DNA of 64,000 nt from contig CAIJPS010000090.1 in NCBI GenBank assembly GCA_903822595.1, positions 1 to 64,000 on the forward strand, read 5' to 3'. Position numbers and translations under genes: made by a program. The notes under the pieces were generated by a model. It made no database searches. It was not told the DNA's origin and saw only the letters and a program-made list of their open reading frames with translations. Positions 24,017-38,739 of this stretch are shown piece by piece. This stretch comes from an uncultured Chlorobiaceae bacterium (GTDB lineage Bacteria; Bacteroidota; Chlorobiia; Chlorobiales; Chlorobiaceae). Numbering within the stretch: the stretch's first letter is position 1; each line of letters begins with the position of its first letter.

Positions 24017-26203
24017 TCAGTTGTTTTCCGCGCCGTTCTCTTTAACGGCATCCTGTTCAACTGCCTTTATTGAAAGGGCAAAACGGGTTTTTCCGGTTCG
24101 GGGATCCTTGCGGACATCAACCAGTTTTACCTTCACCTTTTCACCGATTTTCAGGTGATCACTGACCTTCGTGACTCTTCCGCTTGAAATTTCAGAGATG
24201 TGCACAAGCCCATCGGTTTTTGGAAGAAATTCCACAAAGGCACCGAGCTCATCACGAATATCCCGTACCTTGCCGATGTAGACATTGCCCACTTCTGGCT
24301 TTGCAGTGAGATTTTTTATGGTGGCAAGTGCTGCATTTGTGCCTTCACTGGTGGAGCAGGCGATGGTGACGGTGCCGTCGTCATCAATGTTGATTTCTGC
24401 ACCGGTCTCTTCAGTAATGCTGCGGATGGTCTCTCCACCCTTGCCAATGATCATGCCGATACAGTCAACCGGCACCTTGATGGTTGTCAGTTTTGGCGCA
24501 AAGTTTGCAAGTTCCTGGCGGGTTGAAGGGATAGCCTTCTCCATTTCGTCGAGAATGTGCAGACGGCCTCTGCGTGCCTGCTCAAGGGCGGTTTCAAGGA
24601 TGTGATAGTCGAGTCCATCGATCTTGATGTCCATCTGACAGGCGGTAATACCGTCACGGGTGCCTGATACCTTGAAATCCATATCTCCGAGGTGATCTTC
24701 ATTGCCGAGGATATCGGAAAGTACCGCGTAAGCTTCACCCTCCTTGATCAGTCCCATGGCAATACCTGAAACCGGCTTTTTGATTGGCACACCACCATCC
24801 ATCAGGGCAAGCGTTCCTCCGCATACCGAAGCCATCGATGATGAGCCGTTTGACTCAAGGATGTCTGAGACGATACGGATGGTGTAGGGGAACTCCTCTT
24901 CGGTCGGAGCAACCATTTTGATGGAGCGCTCAGCCAGATTGCCGTGCCCTATTTCCCGCCGCCCGATACTTCCAAGCCTTCCGCATTCACCAACGCTGAA
25001 TGGAGGGAAGTTGTAATGGAGATAAAATCTTTTGTCGGCACTGCTGGTCAGGGTATCAACAGACTGGGCATCTTTTTTTGTGCCGAGCGTAATGGTGACA
25101 AGCGCCTGGGTCTCTCCCCTGGTGAAGAGTGCTGAGCCGTGGGCTCTCGGGATGATGCCAAGTTCAATGCTGATCGGGCGTACCTGGTCAAGGGCTCTGC
25201 CGTCAAGGCGTTTTGCGTCGTCAAGAATCATGTGGCGCATCATCCTCTTTTCGACTGCATGAATCTGTTCGTCGATGATATGCTGGTTAAGGCAGAGAGC
25301 TTTCGATGGATCGGCTGCGATATCCTCGCTGCTGATTGCCGCCTTGAAGTGCTCAATGGTCGCCTCTATGGTTTCACGATAGATGTGGGCGGTCTGGTCT
25401 GCGCGCTCTTCCTTCTGAAGCGGGGTGTAGGCGAGCTCCTTGAGACGGCTTTCGCAGAGTCCCCGAACAACTTCAGTGAGCTCTGCCGGAATAACGGTCG
25501 GTGAAAAGGGTCGGCCTGGTTTTGCAACTTCTGCTGCAATCTCGCTCTGGAGGGCACAGAGTTTGCGGATGGCCGCGTGACCAAACTTGATTGCATCAAC
25601 CATCTCTGCCTCAGAAATCTCTTTCATCTCTCCTTCAAGCATGCAGATGGTATCTACTGTGCCACCGATACAGATATCAAGGTCGCTGCTGGCTAGTTCG
25701 TTGATATCAGGGTTGATGATGAAGAGACCGTTTATTCTGCCTACCCGCACTTCGGACATCGGGTTGTGGAAAGGAATATCGGATACCATGATGGCTGTTG
25801 ATGCTGCCAGTCCGCCAAGGACGTCGGCATCATTGACCTGGTCAGAAGAGATCACGGTTACAATGATCTGGGTTTCATAAAGGTAGCCGTCAGGAAAGAG
25901 AGGGCGGAGTGCACGGTCTATGAGTCGTGCTGAAAGAATCTCTTTTTCGGATGGGCGGCTTTCACGCTTGAAAAAACCACCGGGGAATTTGCCTGCAGCA
26001 GAATATTTTTCGCGGTATTCAACCTGGAGCGGAAAGTAGTCCTGGTTGGGAGGAGGTGTTTTTTTACTTGAAACAACGGTTGCAATGACCATAGTGTCAC
26101 CAAGGCGGACAACGACAGCACCGTCGGCCTGTTTTGCCATTTTACCGGTTTCGATAGAGATAATCTTGCCCTGGCCAAGATCAATTTCTTTGTTGATAAT
26201 CAT
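24017..26203 (-). CDS. pnp: Polyribonucleotide nucleotidyltransferase (PNPase)
   Basis: Phosphorolytic 3'-5' exoribonuclease of mRNA turnover. The 728-residue chain has two RNase PH domains separated by the helical linker. The first contains [10 protein letters not shown] and the [13 protein letters not shown] loop; the second contains [16 protein letters not shown] and [14 protein letters not shown] with catalytic aspartates. A KH domain ([14 protein letters not shown]) and an S1 domain ([20 protein letters not shown]) follow near the C-terminus. Normal bacterial architecture and length. It ends at a clear terminator. No rpsO gene is adjacent, unlike the common rpsO-pnp pair. Confidence 0.98.
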
Positions 26204-34216: not shown

Positions 34217-35524
34217 ATGCAACAGGTCACATTGAAAACACATCACAAAATTGTTCGCGGCGACAGCCGGGAGATGAACCTCCTGCCCGCCAAATCGGTG
34301 CATCTTGTTATCACCTCACCACCTTACTGGCAGCTTAAGGACTACGGGACGGAGAACCAGATCGGCTTTCACGAGAGTTACGAGAGCTACATCAACAACC
34401 TGAACCTTGTCTGGAACGAATGCGAGAGGGTGCTGCACCCCGGTTGCCGTCTCTGCATCAACATCGGTGACCAGTTTGCCCGCTCGGTCTATTATGGCAG
34501 GTACAAGGTTATTCCCATCCGGACGGAGATCATCAAGTTTTGCGAAACCATCGGGTTCGACTACATGGGCGCGGTGATCTGGCAGAAGGTCACCACAACC
34601 AACACCACCGGCGGCGCCTCGATTATGGGGAGCTTTCCCTATCCCCGTAACGGCATTCTCAAAATTGATTACGAGTTTATTCTCATCTTCAAAAAACCGG
34701 GTGACGCACCAAAGCCCACCAAAGAGCAGAAAGAAAGCTCTGCCATGACTACCGAGGAGTGGAACACTTATTTTGCAGGCCACTGGAACTTTGCCGGAGC
34801 AAAACAAGAGGGGCATCTTGCCATGTTCCCTGAAGAGCTTCCGCACCGGCTCATTAAAATGTTCGCCTTCCGGGGCGATACCGTGCTTGACCCATTCATG
34901 GGGAGCGGCACAACCTCACTTGCGGCAAAAAATCTCGGACGAAACTCGGTCGGATACGAAATCAATCCGGAGTTTATCGAGATTGCCCGGCAGAAGCTGA
35001 ATACCAAGCAGCCCGATTTTATGGGTACGGAGTACGAATTTTTGCATGACACGGTCAAGGGTGATTTTGCTGCGGCCATTGAGCAGTTGCCTTATCAATT
35101 CAAAGATCCCCACAAGCTCGACAAGAAAACCGACCCCCGAAAACTCACCTTTGGCTCCAGGATTGAGAAGGAGAGCCAGGCAGAGCGCGAAGAGTTCTTT
35201 ACGGTCAAAGAGATACTCAGCCCAGAAAAAGTGAGGCTATCCAACGGGTTGACGGTAAAACTGATCGGCATCAAAAGCGAACCCTATACGCACGACAACG
35301 CTGTTGCCTATTTAACCGAAAAAATCAAGGGAAAGCGTATATTCCTGAAGTATGACAAGCTGAAACATGACGAAGAACACGTCCTGCTTTGCTACCTCTA
35401 TCTGGAGAACAAGACCTTTGTCAATGCGCATCTGATCAAAAGCGGGCTGGTCGCGATTGACAGCAGCTATGAGTACAGGTGCAGGGGGAAGTTTCTGAAT
35501 ATGGGTGAGCTTGTTCAGGGTTGA
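34217..35524 (+). CDS. Beta-class amino DNA methyltransferase with degenerate nuclease-fold C-terminus
   Basis: A 435-residue modification enzyme. Catalytic motif IV TSPPYW (33-38) precedes the AdoMet motif DPFMGSGTT (225-233), the beta-class order; SPPY points to N4-cytosine or N6-adenine methylation. After a linker, residues about 326-430 read as a staphylococcal-nuclease (TNase) fold: EEFFTVKEILSPEKVRLSNG, VKLIGIKSEPY, YLTEKIKGKRIFLKYD, LLCYLYL and VNAHLIKSGLVAID. The nuclease residues appear lost (the usual GIDTPE is GIKSEP and the second catalytic Arg of YGRxLAY is absent), so it may only bind DNA or protein. The ATG at 34217 is preferred to a longer frame opening at 34130. It heads a restriction-modification cluster. 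Confidence 0.88.
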   Translation: MQQVTLKTHHKIVRGDSREMNLLPAKSVHLVITSPPYWQLKDYGTENQIGFHESYESYINNLNLVWNECERVLHPGCRLCINIGDQFARSVYYGRYKVIPIRTEIIKFCETIGFDYMGAVIWQKVTTTNTTGGASIMGSFPYPRNGILKIDYEFILIFKKPGDAPKPTKEQKESSAMTTEEWNTYFAGHWNFAGAKQEGHLAMFPEELPHRLIKMFAFRGDTVLDPFMGSGTTSLAAKNLGRNSVGYEINPEFIEIARQKLNTKQPDFMGTEYEFLHDTVKGDFAAAIEQLPYQFKDPHKLDKKTDPRKLTFGSRIEKESQAEREEFFTVKEILSPEKVRLSNGLTVKLIGIKSEPYTHDNAVAYLTEKIKGKRIFLKYDKLKHDEEHVLLCYLYLENKTFVNAHLIKSGLVAIDSSYEYRCRGKFLNMGELVQG

Positions 35525-35820
35525 AGAGCGTGACGAGTTCAAAATGTTAGCGGTACTTGTTCATGCTATCAGTCCGATTGCCGAGCAGAGTCAGCATCTT
35601 GAACAACGGCGCGAGCATGGACGAAACCTCTGGCATTTGATGGCTGCGGTTATGATGACATGGACTTCCCCTGACAAACTGGCGTCAGAAGAATAAAATG
35701 CTGGAGCGCACTGTTTTTTTATTTATCTATTCTGAACGGTAAAACAATCCTGCTGGTTTTCGGCATTTCAAATGCTGTGAAATCGGCTATCAGTTTCATT
35801 CAGAGAACAGATCACGAAAC
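35525..35820. other. Spacer between the two methyltransferase genes
   Basis: No recognisable gene. A 63-codon frame from a GTG at 35505 to 35696 (ends TSPDKLASEE) overlaps the end of the upstream methyltransferase and has no family features; it may be a decayed remnant or chance. The segment 35700-35800 is A+T rich without a clear hairpin. Confidence 0.5.
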
Positions 35821-37143
35821 GTGCACATCAATAATAAAATAAGCACAGAGCTCCCAGTCGTTACAAGTGATGAGCAAGTTTATCATGATCGACTGGCAGG
35901 GAGATTAAACAATAAGCTCTCGCTTCGGGTTATTGATCTTTTTGCCGGTGCAGGTGGTTTGTCTGCCGGGTTTTCCTGCTTCTTTGGCCATCACTTCACG
36001 CCAGTTTGGGCGAATGACTTCAACTCTTATGCTGCAGAGAGCTATAATGCCAACTTTGGGGCTCACTGCAGGGTTGGTGATATTGTTGATATTCTTGATA
36101 ACCCCACAACAATTATTCCCAAAGCTGATGTCGTTATTGGAGGCCCTCCTTGCCAGGGATTCAGCCTTTTAAATAAAAACAAGGAGGGAGACGCACGGAA
36201 GCAGCTTTGGATACCATTCATGGATGTTGTCAGGCTTTCTGGCGCTGACGTTTTTGTTATGGAGAATGTCCCTGAGCTGTTAAGTAGTCTGGAATGCCGA
36301 GAAATCTACGCTATGGCGAACTCAATGGGCTTTAGGCTGGTCAGCGCCAAACTCTGTGCAGCCGATTACGGTGTGCCACAAATTCGTTGGCGTGCGTTTA
36401 TTGTAGGATGCAAATTTGCAGACCCCCAGGCAGTATTTCCGCCAAAAAAGACACACTTCCCGCACAAGGGATACCGGCAGAGATTTGTTGAAAGCTATAT
36501 TTCGTACATCGCTGATGCTCAGCCATTCCGGACGGTCAAGGATGCCATAGGCGACCTGCCAGTGCCGCAAGGCACAACTCTTCGCATCGAAGCACCACCA
36601 TTAAATCTTCATTTCGGTCGCACACCGACAGCTAAAAGTTTGGAACGGTACCGATCAATACCCGAAGAGGGGATGAACCGTGTTGATCTCAAAAGAATAG
36701 CTCCAGAGCTGACACCTGATTGCTGGATGCGAAAGAAGAGCGGAGGCACGGATCTCTTTGGGCGGTTATGGTGGAACAAGCCATCAGTAACCATTCGGAC
36801 GGAGTTTTATAAGCCGGAAAAGGGGCGATACTTGCATCCTGTTCAAGACAGGCCGATTACCCACCGGGAGGCTGCCCGTATCCAGTCATTTCCAGATGAA
36901 TTCAAGTTTACTGGCTCAAAAGTGGAAATTGCAAAACAGATTGGCAACGCCGTTCCCTGCCAGCTTGCAGCCCGAGTCGCCGATTGCGTTTATGCCTTGC
37001 TCGCATCAAAAAATGAGGCTATCAAGTCGAAAGGATCAATTGCAACGCAAAGCTCAAGAGTGACAGTCTCAGGCGAAACCGAACGGCACTACAAAAAAAT
37101 AAAAGGTACGGACGTACGTTCGCCTCAAGGGCTTTTTATATAG
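35821..37143 (+). CDS. DNA (cytosine-5-)-methyltransferase
   Basis: A 440-residue m5C methyltransferase with the canonical motif order: I, VIDLFAGAGGLSAGF (D39-G46); IV, IGGPPCQGFS with nucleophile C111; VI, MENVPEL (148-150 ENV); VIII, QIRWR (187-191). A variable target-recognition region follows, then ITHREAARIQSFPD and QIGNAVP (IX-X). It belongs to the restriction-modification type rather than a Dcm housekeeping copy because an HNH endonuclease starts 68 bases downstream. Start is a GTG; the N-terminal 33 residues are extra to the core. Its 5' coding end contains a 15-base string also found at the ppc stop (see findings). Confidence 0.95.
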   Translation: MHINNKISTELPVVTSDEQVYHDRLAGRLNNKLSLRVIDLFAGAGGLSAGFSCFFGHHFTPVWANDFNSYAAESYNANFGAHCRVGDIVDILDNPTTIIPKADVVIGGPPCQGFSLLNKNKEGDARKQLWIPFMDVVRLSGADVFVMENVPELLSSLECREIYAMANSMGFRLVSAKLCAADYGVPQIRWRAFIVGCKFADPQAVFPPKKTHFPHKGYRQRFVESYISYIADAQPFRTVKDAIGDLPVPQGTTLRIEAPPLNLHFGRTPTAKSLERYRSIPEEGMNRVDLKRIAPELTPDCWMRKKSGGTDLFGRLWWNKPSVTIRTEFYKPEKGRYLHPVQDRPITHREAARIQSFPDEFKFTGSKVEIAKQIGNAVPCQLAARVADCVYALLASKNEAIKSKGSIATQSSRVTVSGETERHYKKIKGTDVRSPQGLFI

Positions 37144-37211
37144 ACCGTTCAGTTGTTTGAACAGATCAAAATCGTCAGCGCACTTTTCAGACAGGTTATA
37201 CAGGACTTTTT

Positions 37212-38141
37212 ATGGCAAAACGAAGAACGCTCAACGATCCTGAAAGCTTGCGTCAACAACTTGTAGCGTTGCTGATAAACTTTGAGCATGAGTTGCGGGA
37301 TGGCGACTTGCGCTCGAAAGTATTGGCGCTTTTGCCAGCTCACAACCAGTTGCGGGATATGGGCAGCTCCCTCATCCCGAAAGAGGATGCCTCCGCAGCA
37401 CGAGACCGCATCCTGTATTATTTCTGCAACTATCCCCGTATCGTTATCACAGGCGAAGAGTTGATGATTGTAGCCGGGATAAGTGAGTGGGCAAGACGTC
37501 TGAGGGAGTTGCGGGTTGAGTTTGGCTGGAAAATCATAAGTGGCAGTACGGCCAAAGAGATGGCAAAAGAGGGAGAATTCGCCATTCCCGGTATTGATGC
37601 CTCCATGTTGGGACCCGATGACTATATTCTTGCAGACGAGCATCAGGATCGTGATGACGCATTTCGCTGGAACCTGGCCAACGAAATCCGGCGAAAGAAT
37701 ACAGGTGTTCGAGATCGAATCCTTGAATATTTGTTGCGCAATGTCGGCAAAGTAATAAACGGCGAAGAGTTACGCTACGTTGCAGGCAACAGGACGGAAT
37801 GGGCCCGGCGAGTACGGGAACTGCGAACCGAGTTTGGATGGCAGGTTATGACCAAAACCACAGGAATGCCAGAGATCCCTGTCGGATTATACATACTTAC
37901 CAGCGACCGGCAGGCTCCGGAACATGACCGGGTGATTCCTGACGCAATACGTCGTGAAGTGCTCCAGCGAGATGATTACAAGTGTCAGAAATGCGGATGG
38001 CATCACGAGAAGTGGAACCCGTCAGATCCCCGACATCTTGAAGCGCATCATATAAAGCAGCATGTGGCAGGTGGAGAAAACACAACGGAGAATCTCGTCA
38101 CTCTGTGCAACATTTGTCATGACAAGGAACATGCAAGATAA
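37212..38141 (+). CDS. HNH endonuclease with duplicated DNA-binding-like module, probable restriction enzyme
   Basis: A 309-residue protein with a C-terminal HNH/McrA-type nuclease (about 245-309). Structural cysteines CQKC (258-261) and CNIC (299-302) frame the catalytic AHH (278-280) and ENLVTLC segment. The N-terminal part has two copies of a roughly 47-residue module, 64-111 and 167-213, each reading RDRIL-Y-...-GEEL--VAG---EWARR-REL--EFGW. The pattern suggests winged-helix DNA reading units. Immediate linkage to a cytosine-5 methyltransferase supports a type II restriction role. No characterised enzyme is recognised, and the recognition site cannot be derived. Confidence 0.87.
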   Translation: MAKRRTLNDPESLRQQLVALLINFEHELRDGDLRSKVLALLPAHNQLRDMGSSLIPKEDASAARDRILYYFCNYPRIVITGEELMIVAGISEWARRLRELRVEFGWKIISGSTAKEMAKEGEFAIPGIDASMLGPDDYILADEHQDRDDAFRWNLANEIRRKNTGVRDRILEYLLRNVGKVINGEELRYVAGNRTEWARRVRELRTEFGWQVMTKTTGMPEIPVGLYILTSDRQAPEHDRVIPDAIRREVLQRDDYKCQKCGWHHEKWNPSDPRHLEAHHIKQHVAGGENTTENLVTLCNICHDKEHAR

Positions 38142-38253
38142 TAAAAAGACTTTCTGTGCGGTATTCGTTTCGGAAGTCCTCTAACTACTTTATATCTAAT
38201 GATTTCGAGAAGTTGTTCAGGTGGGTAACTATAGCACACTTCCAGATGAATAG

Positions 38254-38450
38254 TACCAGATCAAAATTAGTAGGAGTGGACTTGTTTACAGGTGCAGGAG
38301 GGGAATGTCACTTCGTGCAAAAATGGCTGGCATAGATGTTCTTCTTGCTGTTGAAAATGATAAACATGCAGCAGCTACCTATGCAAGTAACCACCCGGAA
38401 CCTCAATTATTTATAGATGATATAAGAAATTTCCCCCCTTATCAAAACGA
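38254..38450 (+). pseudogene. Frameshifted 5' fragment of a second cytosine-5 methyltransferase
   Basis: Frame 1 begins at about 38247 (MNSTRSKLVGVDLFTGAGG) and carries methyltransferase motif I. At the following G-run it shifts, and the sense continues in another frame from about 38308 (MSLRAKMAGIDVLLAVENDK, then ATYASNHPEP, IDDIRNF) before a stop near 38454. Together these are motifs I and II and part of III of an m5C methyltransferase; motif IV (PCQ) and everything after are gone. The fragment is not a copy of the intact gene at 35821, whose motif I context differs. Confidence 0.82.
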
Positions 38451-38453
38451 CTG

Positions 38454-38588
38454 ATGATTTTTTTGACAGTGACCAGGGAATGGATATGCTTTAACATTGA
38501 TGCTGAGGAAGTTTTTGGAATCTGCGAAAAGCATCTTGGCAGTTTGCATGATGCCGTTAAGCAAATGAAAGCATCTCTCGCGCCGTAA
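38454..38588 (+). pseudogene. Unidentified 44-codon open frame in the decayed segment
   Basis: A short frame (MIFLTVTREWICFNIDAEEV, then CEKHLGSLHDAVKQMKASLAP) directly follows the methyltransferase wreck. It has no recognisable family and is probably the tail end of a lost gene rather than a working one. In another frame the same DNA ends ...DFFDSDQGMDML, and on the minus strand a further frame is open from about 38690 to 38557, so coding direction is undecided. Confidence 0.25.
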
Positions 38589-38677
38589 ACTGCGTCAATA
38601 TCCTGAAATTATTTTCAAACCACAATCCGATATCGTCAATCTTGTTTCGCGGCAGCACCTTCTGGTCAACGCCCGCC

Positions 38678-38725
38678 GAGCGCCAGCCCGGCAGAAAAAG
38701 AGGATAATCTGCCGGGCTGGAGCTC
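38678..38725. repeat. Long GC-rich hairpin beside the ppc 3' end
   Basis: Perfect 13-bp arms CCAGCCCGGCAGA (38683-38695) and TCTGCCGGGCTGG (38708-38720) around a 12-base loop; after one mismatch the stem continues four more pairs (GAGC/GCTC). It begins 15 bases past the ppc stop (ppc reads leftward) and may act as its terminator, though no T-run follows. The composition is REP-like. Confidence 0.7.
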
Positions 38726-38739
38726 TGCGCTCCCAGTCG

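Follow-up and report, generated by a model that had tools for sequence, protein, structure and literature searches.

A gene on the forward strand of the window (34217..35524), by which we mean the whole 64 kb stretch of DNA analysed here, raises the question of what a nuclease fold that appears to have lost its active site could be doing at the end of a DNA methyltransferase. The gene, which we call MTase-SNase, covers residues 30-464 of a mechanically delimited open reading frame, P0001 (34130-35524, +; 464 codons), whose numbering is used throughout. Translation likely starts at Met30 (34217) or at Leu35 (TTG, 34232), since the alignment of relatives begins near residue 34; the original prediction of a dead nuclease fold counted from Met30, and its residues 326-430 are residues 355-459 here.

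The two-domain protein is already known to databases as a Type II methyltransferase. The PADLOC MTase_II model PDLC03259 (423 positions) covers the whole protein under this label, matching residues 37-457 with an E-value of 2.5e-176, and the label is silent on the SNase-like domain. The N-terminal part is a beta-class N4-cytosine/N6-adenine methyltransferase core (residues 41-295; 34250..35014, +; Pfam N6_N4_Mtase, E = 3.3e-45), a solved relative being 2zie (E = 7.6e-61). Motif IV (TSPPYW) lies ahead of motif I (DPFMGSGTT), which together with the Pfam match places the core in the beta class, as expected of an MjaI-type CTAG methyltransferase, and the SPPY motif suggests N4-cytosine methylation. 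A linker (residues 296-354; 35015..35191, +), in which residues 322-346 are highly conserved among relatives, leads to the domain in question (residues 355-458; 35192..35503, +), recognised as a catalytically degenerate SNase fold by Pfam, profile-profile comparison, an AlphaFold2 model and fold search.

Fold of the C-terminal domain

The SNase fold of the C-terminal ~105 residues of the methyltransferase is confirmed. Taken alone, the domain matches Pfam SNase (PF00565) with an E-value of 7.3e-5 and 23.6 bits, above the gathering cut-off of 21 bits; the whole protein reaches 20.3 bits and stays under it. All 78 members of the domain alignment match the same family at E <= 0.01, the best with 3e-10. 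The profile-profile comparison of the domain family with 13 genomic SNases gave P = 8e-10; the reversed alignment gave 0.66, and in 50 column shuffles of this comparison the probability was at most 2.1%. The AlphaFold2 model of the domain, computed from 78 sequences, has a pLDDT of 83.5 (above 90 across most of model residues 61-160) and shows an OB-fold with its strands and helices in the SNase order (b-b-b-a-b-b-a-a). When this model was submitted to Foldseek, all 50 top rows were staphylococcal nuclease entries (E = 4e-7), and VIA-align superposed it on SNase over 111 residues with a Z-score of 16.2 and an rmsd of 1.9 Å; structure prediction followed by a fold search, the check that had been proposed for this domain, thus bore out the assignment. 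A search of PDB sequences with the domain profile returned no match at E <= 1, and the best phmmer match of the domain had an E-value of 0.26, the remainder being worse, so that the assignment relies on the Pfam match and on the comparisons of profiles and folds. The full-length model reaches a pLDDT of 74.2, its linker and loops being the weak parts. L023 and L050, whose chosen frame hit a stop close to the start, were left out of the alignments, as were L071 from the full-length alignment and L008 and L032 from the domain alignment.

The likeness to Tudor-SN that had been put forward holds in part. As in Tudor-SN and extended Tudor proteins (PMC7641849), a catalytically dead SNase fold is reused as a non-enzymatic module. 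The Tudor insertion, however, is absent: the domain has ~105 residues, and 111 residues of the model (58-169) align to SNase, which leaves no room for a long insertion. It also differs in being bacterial and carried by a DNA methyltransferase, and its binding role is putative.

Active-site loss, conserved lysines and selection

The catalytic positions were compared in 80 aligned proteins, the window's included, following the staphylococcal numbering and the roles of D21, R35, D40, E43, D83 and R87, with D40 and E43 the metal ligands and R87 the phosphate arginine. The 13 reference SNases were selected among 30 fetched loci with a pattern requiring DGDT-like and R..D-x-PE motifs, and D21, R35, D40 and E43 are therefore intact in them by selection, R87 being outside the pattern. 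In the family, the position of D21 is Glu in 67/80 proteins and Asp in none, and that of D40 is Lys in 78/80 and Asp in none; Glu is found at the E43 position in 9/80 and Arg at the R87 position in 2/80. The R35 position is basic in 79/80 proteins (Arg in 44, Lys in 35). None of the 80 proteins keeps three or more of the five catalytic residues, and strand 3 is followed by a shorter loop in the domain than in the 13 references. Judged from these alignments, the nuclease active site of the domain is gone, and cutting by the SNase mechanism would not be possible. The strings on which the original prediction was based (VKLIGI, GIKSEP, YLTEKIKGK and VNAHLIKSGL) are all present in the translation, and GIDTPE and YGR are absent from it. 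Its account of the replacements (GIKSEP, no YGR) is correct. Its central claim, that the methyltransferase carries a dead SNase fold, is supported by Pfam, profile-profile comparison, predicted-structure fold search and catalytic-position counts.

In comparison with staphylococcal nuclease and its thermonuclease relatives (PF00565), the domain thus has the fold over 111 residues, with D83 among the shared positions, but is without D40, E43, R87 and the longer strand-3 loop and is fused to a methyltransferase. Weak Pfam scores such as these could mislead annotation towards DNA-cutting methylase-thermonuclease fusions; the database labels read 'Type II methyltransferase' only. Could a rearranged active site nonetheless let the domain cut as a nuclease? 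The acidic D21 and basic R35 positions would be compatible with such activity, as would D409 and D414, both invariant in the family. However, D40, E43 and R87 are lost, a lysine stands at the D40 position and the strand-3 loop is shortened, while D414 looks structural, since the same column is Asp in 13/13 reference SNases. A nuclease joined to the protecting methyltransferase would moreover presumably be self-harming, and we regard this explanation as very improbable.

The positions that the family has fixed on its own account are rich in lysine. Lysines K360, K382, K398, K412, K428 and K454 are each conserved in 76-79 of the 80 proteins (K382 in 78) and are not common to the 13 SNases; other family-specific invariant positions include N427, T429 and H434. 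The net charge of the domain averages +4.2 in 76 proteins and that of core and linker is close to 0, although the window's own domain has only +3 and the +4 of the family is not above that of many active SNases, which range from -6 to +9. The explanation that we favour, and to which we would give about an even chance, is that the protein is a CTAG-specific N4-cytosine methyltransferase of an MjaI-type system, equipped with an accessory pseudo-nuclease domain whose role is a non-catalytic grip on DNA. The methyltransferase core would read CTAG, and the SNase-fold domain would raise affinity for DNA, or residence on it, without cutting. From the fixed lysines and the basic R35 and D40 positions we infer that this grip would bind phosphate: with a basic residue kept at R35 and a lysine gained at D40, the old cleft may have become a non-cutting, phosphate-binding one. 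A further and rather improbable reading is that the dead cleft senses the state of the DNA (nicked, single-stranded or at a replication fork) and steers CTAG methylation there. If true, modification would stay ahead of the partner endonuclease on new DNA, and the pseudo-nuclease would be the guide of the modification enzyme.

The domain is under purifying selection. Its dN/dS is 0.10, 0.07, 0.16 and 0.12 in comparisons with L002, L007, L008 and L009, respectively (two further comparisons were saturated), and that of the core is 0.04-0.07 in the same near-relative comparisons. Change has nevertheless been quicker in the domain than in the core; in most distant systems, for instance, its identity is 44-60% vs 71-81% for the core. 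This faster pace, and the loss of the domain in a truncated allele common to two genomes (see below), count against the DNA-gripping explanation and are what one would expect of a non-functional or purely structural remnant of an ancient fusion, such as a stabiliser. The dN/dS of 0.07-0.16 and the presence of the domain in 78/78 tested relatives from several phyla run counter to this idea, which we find scarcely probable.

Family spread, RE_MjaI partner and methyltransferases without the domain

A scan of genome contigs returned at least 584 stretches encoding relatives of MTase-SNase, the best 80 of which were retained for analysis. By record title, these best 80 belong to Chlorobiota, Bacteroidota, Ignavibacteriota, Nitrospirota, deltaproteobacterial lineages, Spirochaetes and others. 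In an evenly drawn phylum sample, the domain profile was matched at E <= 0.001 in 75 of 394 genomes, a count that includes some ordinary SNases or short fragments (e.g. L200, which is the same place as the SNase locus L124). The domain had no match in the phage collection and was found at one locus (L188) in viral contigs. In a widespread restriction-modification lineage, a degenerate nuclease fold has become a stable part of the protective methylase. The SNase Pfam match also lies inside open frames of ~640-740 residues (L132, L134-L136, L138-L141 and others); such frames are found in many genomes of family f18 and in some others of the phylum.

The genetic partner of the family is a restriction endonuclease. 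In 60 of 81 loci (L002 and L007-L086), a conserved ~210-aa open reading frame is the first or second same-strand frame within 1 kb of the methyltransferase; two of these frames were scanned and both are RE_MjaI (PF09568; E = 5e-45 and 4.9e-47). A more sensitive search found an RE_MjaI-like frame in 67 of 80 fetched loci, and at least two of the 13 loci without one (L013 and L032) stop at or near the methyltransferase. No conserved partner gene other than RE_MjaI was seen across the 81 loci. MjaI-type systems act on CTAG. M.MthZI, M.MjaI and M.BfaI are 4mC CTAG methyltransferases (PMC5867850) which, like the MTase-SNase family, have a beta-class core with SPPY and an RE_MjaI partner; they differ from it in their length of 303-364 aa and, in the case of M.MthZI, in being without an SNase-like tail. 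No account of an SNase-like domain carried by a CTAG methyltransferase, or by any other bacterial Type II methyltransferase, came up in the open-licence literature searched.

M.MthZI is instructive in this respect. This 355-aa enzyme, whose gene adjoins that of an MjaI-family endonuclease, matches MTase-SNase only up to about residue 291, with a core identity of ~34%, and no SNase-like sequence was recognised by eye in its tail. In this enzyme, a core alone suffices for CTAG. Domain-less methyltransferases also occur within the phylum. Among the 30 RE_MjaI loci fetched from it, the methyltransferase has the domain in 23 and is without it in five; the remaining two (L102 and L111) have no classifiable methyltransferase in the fetched stretch and stand outside this 23-vs-5 count. 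The endonucleases of the five domain-less systems share a strongly supported clade with six from domain-bearing systems, in a tree made by a quick method from 43 hand-chosen proteins of 97 RE-like ones and requiring two label changes, and identity across the divide is 59-61% (L087 to L088, L089 and L031). A tree in which the five domain-less systems are held as one group was not rejected (AU p = 0.21). That endonucleases of the same clade go with both kinds of methyltransferase speaks against a role of the domain in setting the target or in docking the endonuclease.

A second contrast is provided by L151:296-1246 (genome G149) and L201:1234-299 (G264), which have in common a methyltransferase allele ending at about residue 349, without the domain. 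Since their parting, the two cores have accumulated 35 nucleotide and 9 amino-acid differences with a dN/dS of 0.10, so the domain can be dispensable and the core may work alone in these genomes. A search of G149 found no RE_MjaI, and the 43 RE_MjaI-positives do not include G264. Such natural contrasts (one endonuclease clade with both methyltransferase kinds, truncated alleles and orphans) make the role of a pseudo-enzyme domain testable.

These comparisons weigh against both roles that had been suggested for the domain at the outset, target recognition and partner binding. If the domain set or extended target recognition, the target of the family would not be plain CTAG. In favour of this, the domain is an addition to an enzyme with a motif VIII-X region that seems short by eye, and the partner endonucleases of most methyltransferases with the C-terminal domain belong to a branch other than the archaeal-type one. 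Nevertheless, endonucleases of one clade serve enzymes with and without the domain, M.MthZI is without it, and the domain-less core of the two genomes is under purifying selection; we hold recognition by the domain to be improbable. Partner binding is disfavoured where the endonuclease is the partner, by the same mixed clade and by orphans that retain the domain under purifying selection. The domain may still be a protein-protein module of another kind, serving dimerisation of the methyltransferase or docking to a protein of the host (a factor of replication or repair, for example), whose location methylation would follow. SNase folds of Tudor-SN act as protein-binding scaffolds (PMC7641849), and the invariant N427, T429 and H434, like the retention of the domain in orphans, would suit such a module. 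RE_MjaI is, however, the sole conserved partner gene seen, and we consider a protein module fairly unlikely.

Orphan copy of the window and its surroundings

The window's MTase-SNase is itself an orphan whose restriction gene has been lost. In Chlorobium L007, the flanks are those of the window, a ComM-like gene and a gene of 922 aa, which we take to encode PEP carboxylase, and between them lie the methyltransferase and then RE_MjaI. In the window, no RE_MjaI match is left in the corresponding region after the methyltransferase (35525..35820, +), and none was found anywhere in the window's genome. A second copy of the methyltransferase, 93% identical and located on another contig of this genome (C108), is also an orphan. 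Under the DNA-gripping explanation, an orphan could have been retained as protection from incoming CTAG-cutting systems, or for regulation. At L157:3-3671, this second copy is followed by a 1,222-aa protein with NERD and protein kinase domains and a weak NACHT match, which matches the PADLOC models PD-T4-6, MkoA and SspF.

CTAG itself is very rare in this DNA. The window has a single CTAG (25693-25696), where dinucleotide shuffles have 124 ± 10, and in its genome CTAGAA occurs 32 times vs 2264 for the reversed control. The depletion is genus-wide. In 61 genomes with gene classes entered by hand, the median CTAG ratio was 0.0125 in those with near-full RE_MjaI (n = 10) vs 0.0203 in those with neither gene (n = 34; p = 0.11), the other 17 carrying methyltransferase pieces or genes without RE_MjaI. 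Being genus-wide and without a significant link to the genes, the depletion was rejected as proof of specificity. It is compatible with a long exposure of the lineage to CTAG restriction, but is no proof of anything about the MTase-SNase protein.

The interval that follows the methyltransferase (35525-38738) belongs to a fixed site between the ComM-like and 922-aa genes, at which cassettes are exchanged: methyltransferase and RE_MjaI in L007, methyltransferase, C5 methyltransferase and HNH endonuclease in the window. The C5-cytosine methyltransferase (35821..37143, +; Pfam DNA_methylase, 1.4e-54) probably has the HNH endonuclease (37212..38141, +; Pfam HNH, 5.3e-10) as its partner. Both were considered as family-wide restriction-modification partners of MTase-SNase and rejected, each being matched in only 1/80 family loci, weakly in the case of the C5 enzyme. 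The HNH protein seems to contain two similar stretches, GEELMIVAG...SEWARRLRELRVEFGWKI and GEELRYVAG...TEWARRVRELRTEFGWQV, with no repeat visible in the DNA, which might represent a doubled winged-helix module. Further downstream, 38272-38450 is a frameshifted remnant that corresponds to the beginning of a further C5-cytosine methyltransferase (Pfam DNA_methylase, E = 4.7e-10), of which 54 residues were read by eye across two frames.

Elsewhere, the MTase-SNase gene occurs in arrays of degenerate copies, as in the same-genus locus L190, where they occupy the whole 12 kb, and also in L189, L191-L194, L198 and L008. The copies show recurrent internal-deletion joints at residues ~101|191 and ~173|336. 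Between them lie toxin-antitoxin and other cassettes (Gp49/HigB-like, RelE, ParDE, a DUF4143 ATPase and a macro domain), and the methyltransferase fragments look like the repeated borders of a cassette island.
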